Shown: piece after piece, positions 1,202-35,830 of the stretch
Layout: the number at the start of each line of letters is the position of its first letter
How positions within the stretch are numbered: position 1 is the first letter of the stretch
From: Planctomycetota bacterium
GTDB taxonomy: Bacteria; Planctomycetota; Brocadiia; JAADGH01
Reading direction: 5' to 3'
DNA: 64,000 nt
Assembly: GCA_013152475.1 (NCBI GenBank)
Contig: JAADGH010000109.1
Span: 8,247-72,246, forward strand
Program-made: the position numbers and the translations under genes
The notes under the pieces: generated by a model
Told to the model about the DNA's origin: nothing
What the model saw: only the letters and a program-made list of their open reading frames with translations
Databases searched by the model: none

Positions 1202-2254
1202 ATGCGCCTGTTTGGCATTGAGCCTGACGATAAATTCAGAGAATTTGTAGAAACGCCTTTCCAGGCCAACCATGAAGAATCCGTCTTGGAGGGATGGCTT
1301 GAAAGCAACCCTGATGGTATTGTGGAGGATGGAGCACTCCTTATCATCGGCCGTCAAGTCAGCACGAATCTTGGCAGCGTTATTGATCTGCTCGGCATTG
1401 ACCGTCGGGGAGATGTTGTCGTTCTGGAGCTGAAAAGGGATCGAACTCCGCGAGATACCCTTGCTCAATCCCTTGAGTATGCTTCATTTGTTGAGCAGCT
1501 GGACGCTCAACAGTTGGAAGGAATCCTGTGTTCATACCTGAATGATGAATCGGCAAGTTTGGCCGATTACCATCGACAGCACTTCCAACTCGGTCCCGAC
1601 GAAGCTATTGCCTTCAACAAGGATCAGCGGATTGTCATCGTGGGCCAGGGGATCACCAGTGAAATACGGCAAACTTCTCTATTTCTCAGGTCGAAAGGGA
1701 TTCGGATCACATGTGTTGAATTCTCCTTCTTCGAGGCAAAGGATGGGACTCGTTTGCTCTCACATGACATTGTTGTCGGGAAGCAGCCGAGCAAGCCCAC
1801 GCAGGTGGCTTCCGGGTCATTGCCCATTGTTACTGAGGAGTTTTTTGTTGAATCCCTGGATGAATACGGGAGGCAGGTGTTCAAACCCATTCTCGATCTT
1901 GCGGCCAAGAAGCCTTTCCCGATCCACTGGGGAACGAAAGGTTTTTCTCTCAACGTTGACTTGGAAGGCGCTCACGTTGTCCTCTGTTTTGGCTATCCGC
2001 CGGATTCCGTCTATAGACAATCCCTTTACACCGCCTTGATTTCTCCGGGAGGACTTCTCAATAAGACACAGGTTCCAGAAAATATCATCCAGTCGCTTCG
2101 GTCAGAAGCCGTGGGGACAGGATTGTTTCGGCCTGCAGGGCGCGAGCTGAAGTGTGTAATAGATCGCGAGTTCTCCGAAGATGAGATCGGCGCGCTGCTG
2201 TCATGGTGTGAAAAGGTTGCTTGCACCGTGAGACAGTATGGTCTAAAGCAGTAG
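1202..2254 (+). CDS. NucS/DUF91-like PD-(D/E)XK endonuclease family protein
   Basis: The first 100 residues match the nuclease core of the NucS/DUF91 family: 'HEESVLEGWLESNPD' (residues 24-38), an acidic strand 'SVIDLLGID' with D62, and 'VVLELKRDRTP' with E76-x-K78, followed by a helix containing Q89. These residues form the metal-binding site of PD-(D/E)XK nucleases. The rest of the 350-residue protein is unassigned. I chose the ATG at 1202, because the upstream GTG at 1154 adds residues without similarity and lies in the BrnA-like remnant. Base composition is more AT-rich than that of the flanking housekeeping genes, and the gene sits between two toxin-antitoxin loci. A role in defence or mismatch repair is possible but not shown. 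Confidence 0.7.
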   Translation: MRLFGIEPDDKFREFVETPFQANHEESVLEGWLESNPDGIVEDGALLIIGRQVSTNLGSVIDLLGIDRRGDVVVLELKRDRTPRDTLAQSLEYASFVEQLDAQQLEGILCSYLNDESASLADYHRQHFQLGPDEAIAFNKDQRIVIVGQGITSEIRQTSLFLRSKGIRITCVEFSFFEAKDGTRLLSHDIVVGKQPSKPTQVASGSLPIVTEEFFVESLDEYGRQVFKPILDLAAKKPFPIHWGTKGFSLNVDLEGAHVVLCFGYPPDSVYRQSLYTALISPGGLLNKTQVPENIIQSLRSEAVGTGLFRPAGRELKCVIDREFSEDEIGALLSWCEKVACTVRQYGLKQ

Positions 2255-30094: not shown

Positions 30095-32056
30095 TCACTT
30101 GGAAATGCAGAACGGTTTGAATTGCTTGCCTTCTCCACCGAAGAACTTACTGAAAAACTCGTAGTATTCCAAACGAATTGTTTGGATCATCACGATCAAT
30201 CCCTCCAGGAGGATGACCACCCCATTGCCCAGGATGATCACCGCCACCGACGAGAGGGCCGTCCCCGACGCCTCCTCCATGACCTCGGCCAGGGCGAAGA
30301 TGGCGATGCTCAGACCCACGTGGCTGAGGGCGAATGCGCTGACCCGGACGAAGGAGATGGTGTTCGCCAGGAACGACGTGAGCGTGTCCATCAGCTCCAC
30401 GGCCGATTGCATGAGGTACTCCCCAACGCTGCCGTGGAGGGCGCCCGGCTGGTGGGTGAGGATGTTGTAGATCGGCTCGCGGAAGAAGAGGATGACCAGG
30501 GGGACGACGATCAGCAGCACGACCTGCAGCACATTCACCCCCTCGCGGCCGAGGATGATGTGCTTGATCGTTATGCCGATGCAGCCGACGTAGAAGATGC
30601 CGCCAATGACGCCAAGCTTGTCGAAGACGCCATGGAGGTAGTCCCTGCGGTGGAGGCAGTTGATGATGTTGATGACGATGCCCAACAGGATCAGCGCCAT
30701 GCCGATGCAGATGCCGAGCTTGAAGAAGACCAGGACGTCCTCCATAGGGTTCTTCCAGAGCGGGGGAATGATCTTCTCCGACCCGAACACGCTCCCGTAA
30801 AGCGCGCCGAAGATGGCCGACGAGACGCCCGCACCGACGAGGACCACGCCCAGGTCGCCGCAGCGCCTGCGCAGCGCCTTGATGTTGTACATGGCCAGTC
30901 CGGTGAGGGCGATGATGGCGCCCTGGCCCACGTCGCCGAACATGAGGCCGAACATGAGGAGAAAGCTGAGGGCCACGAAGGGCGTCGGCTCGACCTCGTT
31001 GTAGCTCGGGAAGCCGTAGGTCGTGATGATCCGCTCGAAGGGTTTGAGGAACCAGGGATTGCTCAGGAGAACGGGCACAGCCGTGCGGCCCTCGATCACG
31101 TCCTTGAGCGAGGCGGGGTCGCGGGCCTCGATGACGGCCCTGCCGCCGGTCAGCTCCTGCAGCGTGCGGGTCACCTCGTCCACCTTGCCGGCGGGCACCC
31201 AGCCGGAGATGAGGGTGGTATCGGCCGTCCTGCCGAAGTGCTCCTTCGCATGGAGGATCTCCTGCTCGAAGTGGGCCCGAGCCGCGGCGGCGCGGACCGA
31301 GTCGGCGCATTCCTCCCGGAGGGCCTGTATCCGGGGCTCGATCTCCTCGATCTCCCTCTCGGCCTTCTCTCGTTTCCGCTCGGTCTCTTCAAGGATGTGC
31401 CTGGGCATGCCCTCGTATTTCTCCGAGATGTCCTCCTTCTTGAAGCCTGCGGTGTCGAGGTCGGACTCCAGGCCCCAGCGCTTCTTCTTGGTGGTGATGG
31501 CGATGACCCTTCTCTCGCCCGAGGGGGTGGTGAAGGGCATCAGGATACCTTCTTCGTTTTTGTACTGCTCCCGCAACCTCTCCAGGCCAGGGTCCGGCAT
31601 GGACCCCACGACGAAGTGGAGGAAGGAGAAATCGTTGATGTGCTGGATCTCGGTGTCGATCATCGCGAAGGACTCCACCTCGCGCTTGACCTCTTTGAGG
31701 CGCTCCAGGTCCTCCCGCGCGGCGGTCCTTTGGCCGACGAGGTCCTTCGCGATCCCCTCGGTCTTTTCGAGTTTCCGGGCGATCTCCTGTCCTGTCCGGC
31801 TCTTGGGTGTGGGGGCGGGGTGTTCGGCCTTGGGCAGGTCCAGCAGGCCGGTGATTGCGGCCGCGCGCCTTTCGATGCCCCCCCAGAGCTCGCGCTCCTG
31901 TGCGACATCCACCTTCTGGATGCCCGTGACCTCGCCGGTGGGTTTGACGTTCGTCAGATGGATGGCGCCCATCCGGCCGAGCGATTCCGTCAGCGCGTCC
32001 ACGCCGTCGCTCAGGACGAGGATGTCCACCTTCTTCATCGCGGCCGGTTTGAGCAC
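30095..32056 (-). CDS. atpI: V-type ATP synthase subunit I (membrane stator, a-subunit homologue)
   Basis: I start this 653-residue protein at GTG 32056, preceded by GGGAGG; the ORF-track extension overlaps atpC. The N-terminal half is a soluble stalk-binding region rich in coiled coil ('MKKVDILVLSDGVDALTESLGRMGAIHL', then 'EETERKREKAEREIEEIEPRIQAL'). The C-terminal half, from about residue 350, contains several membrane helices, including 'FLLMFGLMFGDVGQGAIIALTGLAMY' and 'LANTISFVRVSAFALSHVGLSIAIFAL', which carries the arginine that faces the c-ring glutamate. It forms the ion half-channels with subunit K. Confidence 0.96.
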   Translation of the reverse strand: MLKPAAMKKVDILVLSDGVDALTESLGRMGAIHLTNVKPTGEVTGIQKVDVAQERELWGGIERRAAAITGLLDLPKAEHPAPTPKSRTGQEIARKLEKTEGIAKDLVGQRTAAREDLERLKEVKREVESFAMIDTEIQHINDFSFLHFVVGSMPDPGLERLREQYKNEEGILMPFTTPSGERRVIAITTKKKRWGLESDLDTAGFKKEDISEKYEGMPRHILEETERKREKAEREIEEIEPRIQALREECADSVRAAAARAHFEQEILHAKEHFGRTADTTLISGWVPAGKVDEVTRTLQELTGGRAVIEARDPASLKDVIEGRTAVPVLLSNPWFLKPFERIITTYGFPSYNEVEPTPFVALSFLLMFGLMFGDVGQGAIIALTGLAMYNIKALRRRCGDLGVVLVGAGVSSAIFGALYGSVFGSEKIIPPLWKNPMEDVLVFFKLGICIGMALILLGIVINIINCLHRRDYLHGVFDKLGVIGGIFYVGCIGITIKHIILGREGVNVLQVVLLIVVPLVILFFREPIYNILTHQPGALHGSVGEYLMQSAVELMDTLTSFLANTISFVRVSAFALSHVGLSIAIFALAEVMEEASGTALSSVAVIILGNGVVILLEGLIVMIQTIRLEYYEFFSKFFGGEGKQFKPFCISK

Positions 32057-32078
32057 GTCATGCCTCCCGAAGGAGTGT

Positions 32079-33125
32079 TCACGTCGCCAGGGGGATAAGC
32101 TCCCGCCGGATATCGTTCGCGGGCAGCTCATAGCGAAATCCCTGGATGACACGGGCCAGGTTCATAAACTCGATTTTTCTCAAAGCAGCATAGCCGACGA
32201 CCACGCCGATGTCGAACTGGTTTCCGTAGAAGGTCCGGTTCGCCACGCGGCAAAGGTGGTCCCAGAAGAGCCGTTCGCAGTCGCCCAGGTTGCCGTCGGC
32301 GCGCTCGAAAAGTGTCCGGTACTCTGCCGGGAGCTGCTGGACCAGGCCCTCGGCATCCTCCGCACGGCACATGCGATCGAGCGTATCCATCTGCAGGAGA
32401 CGACCGTGCGCAGAGAGGAGCGGCACGGTGTCCTCGGTGGGCAGGCCGTATGTGAAGCGCAGGCGGAGGGCGGTGAAGATGCTGGCAATATCCATCTCCA
32501 AACCGACGATCCGCACGGCCACGCGCCGATCGCCCCTGCGCAGGTCCTGGACCCGCTGCCAGAGGAGGTCGTAGTAGGCCCGGTCGAGGGCGGCGAAGAC
32601 GTAGAAGAGAACGCCGTCCCGCTCGTACCGCTCAAAGACGGGGGCCATCTGCTCAGGCAGGTCCGGCAGCGCCTCCTGGAGGCGGAGCCGGGCGAAAAGC
32701 TCCGGCAGCGACCCCGCTGCCAGCAGGTCCTTTACGGCCGGCGGCGGGGCGTTCGGGTCGCGGACAAGATAATCCTCGATCTCTCCCGGCGGGGGCTCGC
32801 CCTGCTTCTGCTGGCGCCAGAACTGGATGACCACTTTGCCGTTCTCGACGGTTCGGCGCAGGAGGATGGTCTCGATCAGGGCCCGGCTGGGGCCGTTCAT
32901 GTGTTGGCGGATCTGGGCCAGGTCTTCGAAGAGCTGCTCCATGAGGGACCTTTCGATCGCCACGTCGTCCATGAAGGCCTGCCGGCGGCCGGGGCAAAGG
33001 GTCTGGAGGAGGTCGGTCAGACCCGAGCAATTCAGGAGGGCGGTGAGGCGGTCGGTCTCGCGGAGCCGGCTGCGCATACCGTGGACCTTGGCATTGATGA
33101 ATTCGTACTCGTCTGTAGGCCACAT
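32079..33125 (-). CDS. atpC: V-type ATP synthase subunit C (rotor-ring adaptor)
   Basis: The 348-residue, largely helical protein begins 'YEFINAKVHGMRSRLRETDRL', the standard opening of V/A-type subunit C (a homologue of eukaryotic subunit d), and contains 'LEMDIASIFTALRLRFTYGLP' and the terminal 'FDIGVVVGYAALRKIEFMNLARVIQGFRY', where the conserved 'K.E..NL..I..G' pattern is seen. It couples the central stalk to the c-ring. A 143-bp gap with two hairpins separates it from the upstream stalk gene; downstream, atpI follows after 22 bp. Confidence 0.93.
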   Translation of the reverse strand: MWPTDEYEFINAKVHGMRSRLRETDRLTALLNCSGLTDLLQTLCPGRRQAFMDDVAIERSLMEQLFEDLAQIRQHMNGPSRALIETILLRRTVENGKVVIQFWRQQKQGEPPPGEIEDYLVRDPNAPPPAVKDLLAAGSLPELFARLRLQEALPDLPEQMAPVFERYERDGVLFYVFAALDRAYYDLLWQRVQDLRRGDRRVAVRIVGLEMDIASIFTALRLRFTYGLPTEDTVPLLSAHGRLLQMDTLDRMCRAEDAEGLVQQLPAEYRTLFERADGNLGDCERLFWDHLCRVANRTFYGNQFDIGVVVGYAALRKIEFMNLARVIQGFRYELPANDIRRELIPLAT

Positions 33126-33167
33126 GGCAATGGAGTCACTACCTGTTGTGGGGATCGTCTGCGACCC

Positions 33168-33193
33168 GCCCGCTCAAACCAGTTTGAGCGGGC
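33168..33193. repeat. Perfect 12-bp inverted repeat in the V-ATPase operon
   Basis: GCCCGCTCAAAC, CA, GTTTGAGCGGGC. It lies between the H-subunit gene and atpC, in the operon's transcript, and could form a stable mRNA hairpin. It is one of a pair with 33225-33247. Confidence 0.85.
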
Positions 33194-33224
33194 ACCCCTA
33201 TCCAGCCAGACCTGCACGTGTGCT

Positions 33225-33247
33225 ACGCTCAAGCGGGGCTTGAGCGT
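33225..33247. repeat. Perfect 9-bp inverted repeat in the V-ATPase operon
   Basis: ACGCTCAAG, CGGGG, CTTGAGCGT. It shares the CGCTCAA core with the palindrome 32 bp away, and both resemble the one at 23375-23398. Confidence 0.8.
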
Positions 33248-33268
33248 GCTTCCCGCGTCGGGAACGAG

Positions 33269-33580
33269 TCAGTCGGCCAGGAGCGTGTCCACGACGGCTC
33301 GGATGGCCTCATCCTCCCGGGCCTTGCTGCGTTCGCGGAGTCGCTGGATGTCCACCTCGGCATCCTTCAGGGCGTCCTGTTTCTGTTTCCGGGCCTCTTC
33401 GCGGGCGGCCTCCACGATTTGGTTGGCGTCTTCCTGGGCCTTCTGGCAGATCAGTTGGAGCCTTTGCCGGGCATCTTCCTGGGCCTTCATGCGGATCTCC
33501 CGGGCGCTGGTCTGGGCGGCCTGGACGATCGAATTCGCCTTCTCCTCGACCTCCAGCATGTGCTTGATGACGTCTTGCAT
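33269..33580 (-). CDS. V-type ATP synthase subunit H/G (peripheral stalk coiled coil)
   Basis: The 103-residue protein is almost wholly charged coiled coil ('VEEKANSIVQAAQTSAREIRMKAQEDARQRLQLI'), with the right-handed, 11-residue-repeat look of archaeal-type AhaH/G subunits. These pair with subunit E to form the peripheral stalk. Its place ahead of atpC and straight after the EIIA-like gene (no intergenic base) supports this role over a generic coiled-coil protein. Confidence 0.85.
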   Translation of the reverse strand: MQDVIKHMLEVEEKANSIVQAAQTSAREIRMKAQEDARQRLQLICQKAQEDANQIVEAAREEARKQKQDALKDAEVDIQRLRERSKAREDEAIRAVVDTLLAD

Positions 33581-34051
33581 TTAGTCGTTCATCCGCGCTT
33601 TGGCCTCGGCGACGAGGATCGCGATGACGTCCTTGGCTGTCTCCGCCCCCACCAGTTTCTGGTAGAGCCCGGGCGTTTCGACGAGGGTCGCGATATTGGC
33701 CAGGGCCTCGATGTGCAGCCCGGGGTTGTTCTCGGTGGCGAGCATCAGAAAGACGACGTGCACCGGTTCATCCTGCCCCGACTCGTAGTCGATGCCGTCC
33801 TTGGAGACGCCTACGGCGATAACGAGATCGTCCACGGCGTCGGTCTTTGCGTGGGGGATGGCGACACCCTTGCCGATGTCGGTGCTGCCTTTTTCCTCTC
33901 GTTCCCAGAGTGCGTCCAATGCGACGCGGCGGTCCTTGATCTTCCCCGCACGGACGAGCACGTCGAGGAGTTCCTCAAACATTTCCTCCTTGTCCTTGGA
34001 CTCCAGGTCGATCTTGACCAGCGCTTCCTCAATCAGTTCCAGGAGTATCAT
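33581..34051 (-). CDS. PTS fructose-type EIIA-like protein heading the V-ATPase operon
   Basis: This 156-residue PTS_EIIA type 2 domain has the phosphorylatable histidine in 'GKGVAIPHAKTDAVDDLVIAVGVS' and the usual 'VHVVFLMLATENNPGLHIEALANIA' core, so the active-site histidine and its partner are both present. No EI, HPr, EIIB or EIIC gene is in the window, so it probably works as a phosphorylation sensor (PtsN-like) rather than in sugar transport. It is the first gene of the ATPase operon and abuts the H-subunit gene with no gap, suggesting coupled synthesis and perhaps control of ATPase activity. That last point is inference. Confidence 0.88.
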   Translation of the reverse strand: MILLELIEEALVKIDLESKDKEEMFEELLDVLVRAGKIKDRRVALDALWEREEKGSTDIGKGVAIPHAKTDAVDDLVIAVGVSKDGIDYESGQDEPVHVVFLMLATENNPGLHIEALANIATLVETPGLYQKLVGAETAKDVIAILVAEAKARMND

Positions 34052-34338: not shown

Positions 34339-35235
34339 ATGAAAAACGCCCTCATCATCCTGAACCCTATTGCCGGCGCGCGCCGGGGCGCCGACCTGTC
34401 GGCGCGTCTCCGGCGGATGCTTCTGGAGGAGGGGGTGGATGCTACGATCACCGAGACGGCGCGGCGCGGCGACGCCGAGACCATTGCCCGGGAGGAACAC
34501 GCGCACTACGACATGGTCGTCGGCGCCGGAGGTGACGGGACAGTGAACGAGGTGGCCTCGGGGCTCCATGGGACGGACACGCCCCTCGGCATCCTCCCCC
34601 TCGGCACGGCGAATGTGCTCGCCCGGGAGCTCGGCATTCCCCTCGGCATGAAAGGCGCCTGCCGCGTCCTGGCCTCGGGCGTTCCCCGGGCCATCGATGT
34701 GGGTTTGGCCTTATTCCCATCCCGGAACACCGGGCACCCCTTCCTGTCCATGGCCGGAGCGGGGCTGGACGCGGCCGTGGCCCATGCCTATAAGGCCGTT
34801 CGGAGGAAGTCCAGCCGGTACCATCAGTACGTTGTTCCGATCCTCCTGAGCATCCGCGATTTTCACTTTCCGGAGATTCACGTTTCCCTCGACGGCCGGC
34901 CCCTCGCGAAGCCGGCGACCTCGGTGATCGCTGGCAACATCCGCACCTACGGCGGCCCGTTCCGGCCCACTCCCCATGCCGAGCCGGACGATGGGCTGCT
35001 GCATGTCTGCGCCGTCCACGTCCGGAACACGCGGGACCTGCTCCGGTGCCTGTGGGGGACCATGACCGGCCGGCACATCGACTATCCCGACGTGACGTAC
35101 GCCACTGCACGGGAGGTTCGCATCGAAAGCGGAGACCACGTTCGCGTGCAGCTCGACGGCGATGCGGTGGGACGTCTTCCGGTGCAGCTTTCTATTCTCC
35201 CGCGCGGCCTGTCTGTGATTGCCCCAGGGGTCTGA
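34339..35235 (+). CDS. Diacylglycerol/lipid kinase family protein (YegS/BmrU/DagK type)
   Basis: This 298-residue DAGK catalytic-fold protein shows 'LIILNPIAGARRGADLSARLRRML', the nucleotide-binding 'VVGAGGDGTVNEVASGL' and 'LGILPLGTANVLARELGIP', then the C-terminal beta-sandwich with 'TSVIAGNIRTYGGPFRPTPHAEPDDGLLHV'. Members phosphorylate diacylglycerol, sphingoid bases or related lipids with ATP at the membrane surface. The spacing and motifs are complete. It has its own promoter and is divergent from the ATPase operon. The exact lipid is not determinable. Confidence 0.92.
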   Translation: MKNALIILNPIAGARRGADLSARLRRMLLEEGVDATITETARRGDAETIAREEHAHYDMVVGAGGDGTVNEVASGLHGTDTPLGILPLGTANVLARELGIPLGMKGACRVLASGVPRAIDVGLALFPSRNTGHPFLSMAGAGLDAAVAHAYKAVRRKSSRYHQYVVPILLSIRDFHFPEIHVSLDGRPLAKPATSVIAGNIRTYGGPFRPTPHAEPDDGLLHVCAVHVRNTRDLLRCLWGTMTGRHIDYPDVTYATAREVRIESGDHVRVQLDGDAVGRLPVQLSILPRGLSVIAPGV

Positions 35236-35257: not shown

Positions 35258-35286
35258 TTGACAAGCGAGGGGTGAGCCCATACGAT
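35258..35286 (+). promoter_or_regulatory. Promoter of the HTH-PilZ gene
   Basis: TTGACA (35258-35263), 17 bp, TACGAT (35281-35286), 40 bp before the start codon. Confidence 0.65.
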
Positions 35287-35326
35287 AGGGCGTTGCACAT
35301 GTGCGGTTAACCGGAAGGAGGAGCTC

Positions 35327-35830
35327 ATGTCCATCACCCACGAGGAAATCGCCAGTCGCCTCAATCTCGCGCGAAGCACCGTCACTCGAATCCTCAACAA
35401 CGACCCAAACTACCGGGCGAGCCAAAAAACGCGCAAGAAAGTCCTGGCCCTGGCGAGGGAGCTCAGCTATGACTTCGGCAACCTGCGCCGCATCCATCGC
35501 CGCCGGTTCGAGCGCATTCCAGTGGACTTTCCGGTGTATGTGAAGATCCTCCTGCCCGACGACATGGTGTTTGACGAGGGCCACGCGAAGATGCTCGACC
35601 TGAGCCCGGTCAGCGCGCTCATCGGTGAGTTCCGGCTCCACAAGCAGGTGATGCCGGTGACGGAGTTTCTCCTCGGGATTGAGGTCCTGGAGGGAGAACT
35701 CGCTGCCGTCAGACTCCGGGCGCGCATCGCACGAATCAGCCTGACGGAGGGGGTGCAGATGGGCGTGGAGTTCGTGGAGATCGAACGGGAGGTGCTGGAC
35801 CGGATCAAGAAGTTCCTGAACTACGGTTGA
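35327..35830 (+). CDS. LacI-type HTH fused to a PilZ domain
   Basis: In this 167-residue protein, residues 1-55 match the LacI-family DNA-binding helix-turn-helix and hinge start ('ITHEEIASRLNLARSTVTRILNN', then 'SQKTRKKVLALARELSYDF'). In place of a sugar-binding domain there is a PilZ domain: R59-x3-R63 ('RRFERIPVDFPV') and a D-x-S-x-x-S variant of the second motif (D92-L-S94, with the usual glycine replaced by S97). PilZ domains bind cyclic di-GMP, so this could be a nucleotide-responsive DNA-binding regulator. Binding is uncertain because of the motif change. GGAAGGAGG precedes the start. Confidence 0.82.
   Translation: MSITHEEIASRLNLARSTVTRILNNDPNYRASQKTRKKVLALARELSYDFGNLRRIHRRRFERIPVDFPVYVKILLPDDMVFDEGHAKMLDLSPVSALIGEFRLHKQVMPVTEFLLGIEVLEGELAAVRLRARIARISLTEGVQMGVEFVEIEREVLDRIKKFLNYG

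Follow-up and report, generated by a model that had tools for sequence, protein, structure and literature searches.

The window (the whole stretch of DNA analysed, 64,000 nucleotides from a Planctomycetota bacterium) includes a gene whose product joins a LacI-type helix-turn-helix (HTH) to a PilZ domain. This protein is not a singleton: its family, spread across diverse Planctomycetota, has at least 37 members. It is probably a c-di-GMP-responsive, self-repressing one-component transcription factor that controls surface-protein genes in this phylum. The features of the gene and of its upstream region are given in Table 1.

Table 1. Features of the LacI-HTH/PilZ gene and its upstream region (positions in the window; amino acid numbering from the first methionine)
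Feature	Position	Strand	Basis or remark
Gene encoding the LacI-HTH/PilZ protein, 167 aa	35327..35830	+	ORF (ATG at 35327, stop codon ending at 35830) preceded by a ribosome-binding site and a promoter; 36 relatives share the architecture
LacI-type HTH, residues 3-48	35333..35470	+	Pfam LacI, AlphaFold2, superposition on CcpA, family profile
Linker, residues 49-57	35471..35497	+	In place of the LacI hinge; low model confidence
PilZ domain, residues 58-164	35498..35818	+	Six-strand barrel and C-terminal helix; Pfam, Foldseek
RxxxR c-di-GMP motif, R59 and R63	35501..35515	+	Kept in 35/37 and 37/37 members
D/NxSxxG motif, here D91-L-S93-P-V-S96	35597..35614	+	Glycine replaced by serine
Promoter TTGACA-17-TACGAT	35258..35286	+	Sole promoter-like (sigma-70-like) match of the region, 0.1 expected
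Proposed operator GCACATGTGC	35295..35304	.	About +2 to +12 of the transcript; CACATGTG also found at L060, L061 and L067; rare genome-wide
Second palindrome CGGTTAACCG	35304..35313	.	Directly adjoins the candidate operator; not common to relatives
Ribosome-binding site AGGAGGAG	35316..35323	+

The LacI-type HTH

Residues 6-48 score above the Pfam LacI cut-off (33.4 bits, cut-off 27; E 3.8e-8). The AlphaFold2 model (36-row alignment; mean pLDDT 92.6, pTM 0.65) has helices at residues 5-12, 16-23 and 33-45, which is the pattern of the LacI headpiece, and this part superposes on the CcpA headpiece in a Foldseek comparison with the PDB (1.7-2.0 Å rmsd over 47-49 columns). When the family profile was compared with the PDB, the HTH part matched CytR (4e-8), LacI (1e-6) and CcpA (3e-6). 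Positions R16, T/S18, V19, K/R21 and N24 of the recognition helix are strongly conserved in the family. The LacI-type DNA-binding domain that the initial annotation had placed at residues 1-55 is thus borne out by Pfam, predicted fold and family conservation; its likeness to LacI in structure, which had been proposed as a check, is seen in the match to the CcpA headpiece. Nothing connects the protein with sugars: it lacks the sugar-binding half of LacI repressors, and its candidate targets encode exported proteins. The C-terminal effector core of LacI (periplasmic-binding-protein-like) has no counterpart in the 167 aa, since residues 58-164 are PilZ.

The linker (about 10 residues; 5 residues shorter in the clade L062-L065) is the only uncertain part of the model, with a mean pLDDT of 59 for block 51-60. 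No hinge helix was predicted by AlphaFold2 (no helix of at least 4 residues at 46-63), although such a helix may form only once DNA is bound. The short length of the protein and its lack of a canonical hinge helix would fit an HTH-like part that does not bind DNA, the protein working through protein contacts. This is very improbable, given the strong conservation of the recognition-helix positions, a fold that matches DNA-bound headpieces of the LacI family and the palindrome found upstream of the protein's own gene (see below).

The PilZ domain and its ligand motif

Pfam PilZ matches residues 58-164 just under its cut-off (E 2.5e-4; 21.8 bits for a cut-off of 22.5). In the AlphaFold2 model, six strands extending from residue 64 to 149 form a barrel, followed by a C-terminal helix. 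The top Foldseek matches in the PDB (probability 1.00 to solved PilZ domains) are MapZ, PA0012, Alg44, YcgR, MotI and MrkH, mostly in c-di-GMP-bound form. The PilZ part of the family profile matched the c-di-GMP-binding PilZ protein PP4397, weakly (0.04). The PilZ domain announced by the initial annotation is therefore upheld by relatives, predicted fold and motifs, despite a Pfam score just below cut-off, and the structure prediction suggested there gives, with confidence, both a LacI-type DNA-binding domain and a PilZ barrel.

In PilZ domains of known structure, c-di-GMP is bound by residues of two motifs, RxxxR and D/NxSxxG (PMC7288161). The first had been correctly reported as R59-x3-R63. 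Of the second, D91 and S93 are present, with a numbering one too high in the initial annotation (D92-x-S94 for D91-x-S93); the replacement of its glycine by a serine is real and affects residue 96. The first position of this motif is D or N in 31/37 members and E in 5/37; its serine (S93) is S in 27/37 and G in 9/37. The glycine is kept in 35/37, the exceptions being the window protein and L067. A relaxed full motif is present in 32/37 members. With 4 GGDEF proteins and 9 further PilZ proteins encoded in the host genome, the c-di-GMP signal is present there. Binding of c-di-GMP to the PilZ domain would involve R59, R63 and the segment D91-x-S93.

Alternatively, the protein may bind DNA while its PilZ domain, having lost the ability to sense c-di-GMP, works in dimerisation or in binding other proteins, like degenerate PilZ proteins such as PilZ of Pseudomonas or Xanthomonas. 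S96 in place of glycine, a PilZ score that just misses the Pfam cut-off and the variation within the family (S93 replaced by G in 9/37, E at the acidic position in 5/37) are in keeping with such a loss. This reading is nevertheless unlikely: the 37 members, though diverged, keep R59 and R63 almost without exception, which a structural role alone would not need; the degenerate PilZ proteins given in PMC7288161 and PMC12564702 have lost their canonical motif residues; and the nearest folds are c-di-GMP-bound PilZ domains.

Family and distribution

The 37 full-length members, including the window protein, come from 26 genomes (98 related genomes, then 392 genomes of the phylum, were searched). 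The survey for the same architecture advised in the initial annotation thus found 36 relatives in Planctomycetota genomes. Some genomes carry 3-4 copies (G097, G264, G336). When members were scanned singly (n=36), LacI was matched in 31 and PilZ in 32 (PilZ at E up to 0.01), so that neither half is a chance match. A single-protein search of 74 other sampled members of the host's class gave no match: the gene is therefore patchily distributed. In the contig database, a single-sequence scan found nothing; an alignment scan found 11 loci, whose named records are Planctomycetota and most of which duplicate genomes already found. Among 85,462 species, a pattern consisting of one HTH peptide had its named matches in Planctomycetota only, so that the apparent rarity of the combination outside this phylum is just loosely tested.

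No gene neighbour of the window gene is common to its relatives, so the targets are not named by gene context. In the window, positions 30095-34051 (strand -) encode V-type ATPase subunits I and C/AC39, then a PTS EIIA-2 protein; this stretch lies upstream of a diacylglycerol-kinase-like gene (34339-35235). Elsewhere, five paralogues (family f84: L083, L086, L087, L088, L089) adjoin yidC, and also mnmE in 4/5 loci. The place beside yidC/mnmE is often occupied by jag/khpB in other bacteria. In another clade (L069, L072, L075, L077, L078, L079), the gene lies between genes for a CitMHS transporter and a LysM protein on one side and, in most loci, a gene for a DUF3857/transglutaminase protein on the other; in the promoter of this clade, TGTGCATTC is conserved immediately downstream of the -10 box.

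Candidate operator

The palindrome GCACATGTGC is found just after the -10 box of the window gene, over the transcription start. The 8-mer palindrome CACATGTG occurs at most 75 bp upstream of the gene in the window genome and in three distant genomes, namely upstream of L060, L061 (between -35 and -10) and L067 (twice). It is present in 4/6 compared close upstream regions, a number reached by any 8-mer palindrome in 0/5000 shuffles; the six genes were picked after the sites were seen, which weakens this result, and they form one poorly resolved group in the tree. With all 37 upstream regions, CACATGTG was present in no more than 3 of them in any of 1000 shuffles, though the best of all palindromes reached at least 4 in 34/1000; its support is therefore owed chiefly to the close group and to actual genome counts. 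The four genomes have 48, 11, 6 and 21 copies. The chance of finding one within 200 bp before the gene in all four is about 2e-13, or about 7e-10 (about 1e-9) after correction for the choice of the palindrome and of four genes in six. Extending the clade through the classes of G075 and G113 yielded only two genomes each. No CACATGTG was found upstream of the gene in more distant clades of the family.

CACATGTG is likely the operator of the LacI-PilZ protein, as judged from its position and counts. The location of the site suggests repression of the protein's own gene, since it covers the start here and lies between -35 and -10 in L061. The centre of the candidate operator is an A-T step. Classical operators of the LacI family have a central C-G, which is read by the hinge helix. 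Two other types of half-sites, TTCAC-N4-GTGAA (L062/L064) and TGTGC-N11/12-GCACA (f54 clade), were set aside, coming from few or closely related sequences. A second CACATGTG of the window (1708-1715) is located within a predicted ORF of about 367 aa.

That CACATGTG belongs to another regulator, acting on both this gene and the exported-protein genes described below, while the LacI-PilZ protein has other targets, is rather improbable. The palindrome is short with a centre unlike that of classical LacI operators, and more distant clades lack it, all of which leaves room for such a regulator. However, the site tracks the gene in four genomes of different families whose neighbourhoods are wholly different, and autoregulatory sites usually mirror the regulator's own specificity. 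Moreover, G075 has just 6 sites in 5 Mb, one of them at the LacI-PilZ gene, and the host genome encodes just one other LacI-type HTH.

Candidate regulon

The host genome encodes 24 large exported-looking proteins (L151-L174) with the LEPR-like N-terminus RIHxxLxxEELExRxAP. The exported-protein motif was not recognised above cut-off by the NCBIfam LEPR-8K model NF012209; a DNA pattern for EELExRxxP was therefore used to locate the genes (24 genes, control 1). These proteins look like exported, surface or extracellular ones because of their domains: C25 (gingipain-type) peptidase, S8 subtilase, beta-helix, CARDB/CAP, PMP repeats and beta-propeller repeats.

In the upstream regions of the LEPR-type genes, CACATGTG occurs more often than any other 8-mer palindrome. 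Exact copies are found at most 450 bp upstream of the motif in 5/24 genes (six sites), versus 0.08 expected. GCACATGTGC with at most 1 mismatch precedes 8/24 genes, versus at most 3 in 500 shuffles and fewer than 0.5 expected; without the five genes (six sites) that raised the hypothesis, it still precedes 3/19 (p about 0.002). The 9-mer CCGATTGCG is found in 5/24 of the same upstream regions.

In other genomes, CACATGTG sites outside genes precede genes for an MshEN/T2SSE ATPase (pilus- or secretion-type), a response regulator, a hybrid kinase-like protein, a DUF4388 protein and a divergent pair encoding a protein kinase and an FHA protein; the intergenic status of these sites was taken from crude ORF calls and they are not the main evidence. 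In two different genomes (2001-2053 in L142; 1500-1559 in L177), exported-protein genes are preceded by a pair of CACATGTG sites, with distances of 43 and 52 bp. This arrangement suggests cooperative binding.

Comparison with known regulators

MrkH (Klebsiella pneumoniae) is likewise a regulator that binds DNA, acts on surface structures and has a PilZ domain bearing the c-di-GMP motifs (PMC3161979). It has no HTH and contacts DNA through a PilZ-like fold (PMC3161979, PMC12564702), whereas the window protein has an N-terminal LacI-type HTH. MrkH is a c-di-GMP-dependent activator; the window protein, of 167 aa, would repress its own gene. The two are built from different parts and may be functionally alike. 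Members of the LacI/GalR family (LacI, PurR, CcpA, CytR) share the N-terminal three-helix headpiece and a palindromic site near the promoter; unlike them, the window protein lacks the sugar/purine core and the canonical hinge helix, and its ligand domain is PilZ. MapZ, PA0012, Alg44 PilZ and YcgR (single-domain PilZ) share the barrel fold and RxxxR, and have D/NxSxxG, of which the window protein has D91 and S93 with serine in place of the glycine. They act on proteins or enzymes, whereas the window protein bears its own HTH. FleQ, VpsT, BldD, BrlR and LtmA combine c-di-GMP input with HTH output, but none uses PilZ for the ligand (PMC12564702, PMC10519070).

Reviews of 2023 and 2025 include no c-di-GMP regulator made of PilZ and a canonical HTH (PMC10519070, PMC12564702). 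MrkH is the PilZ exception among transcription factors, and the part with which it binds DNA is unusual (PMC12564702, PMC3161979). By 2020, Pfam already comprised 221 PilZ architectures (PMC7288161); the combination of LacI and PilZ may already be in databases, unstudied, among the uncharacterised ones. Literature searches found no paper joining PilZ and LacI in the sense of this protein, and nothing relevant for PilZ and Planctomycetota with c-di-GMP or LacI. A c-di-GMP route to promoters seems undescribed in Planctomycetota.

Proposed mechanism and significance

The flexible linker bearing the HTH ends two residues before the start of RxxxR. In known PilZ proteins, the RxxxR stretch wraps round the ligand upon binding. 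As R59-x3-R63 sits at the end of the HTH-bearing linker, c-di-GMP would, in the simplest mechanism, fix this linker and so determine how two HTH units are spaced or paired in a putative dimer. The changed presentation of the HTH would alter affinity for GCACATGTGC, making it either stronger or weaker; DNA binding would thus be under c-di-GMP control. The LacI-PilZ protein would repress its own gene by occupying the transcription start and would control a set of genes whose products are large exported proteins or serve related surface functions. A broader scheme is put forward tentatively and could well prove wrong: a phylum-specific LacI-HTH/PilZ switch that senses c-di-GMP, represses itself and coordinates dozens of exported proteins via GCACATGTGC, with paralogues having moved to other sites or targets.

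For this compact and soluble single-chain candidate, the ligand site, a 10-bp operator and a target set are all predicted, so that one binding assay would test the whole proposal. If the proposal is true, a LacI headpiece can be driven by a core that does not bind sugars, and one protein would form the switch from a c-di-GMP lifestyle signal to surface proteins.
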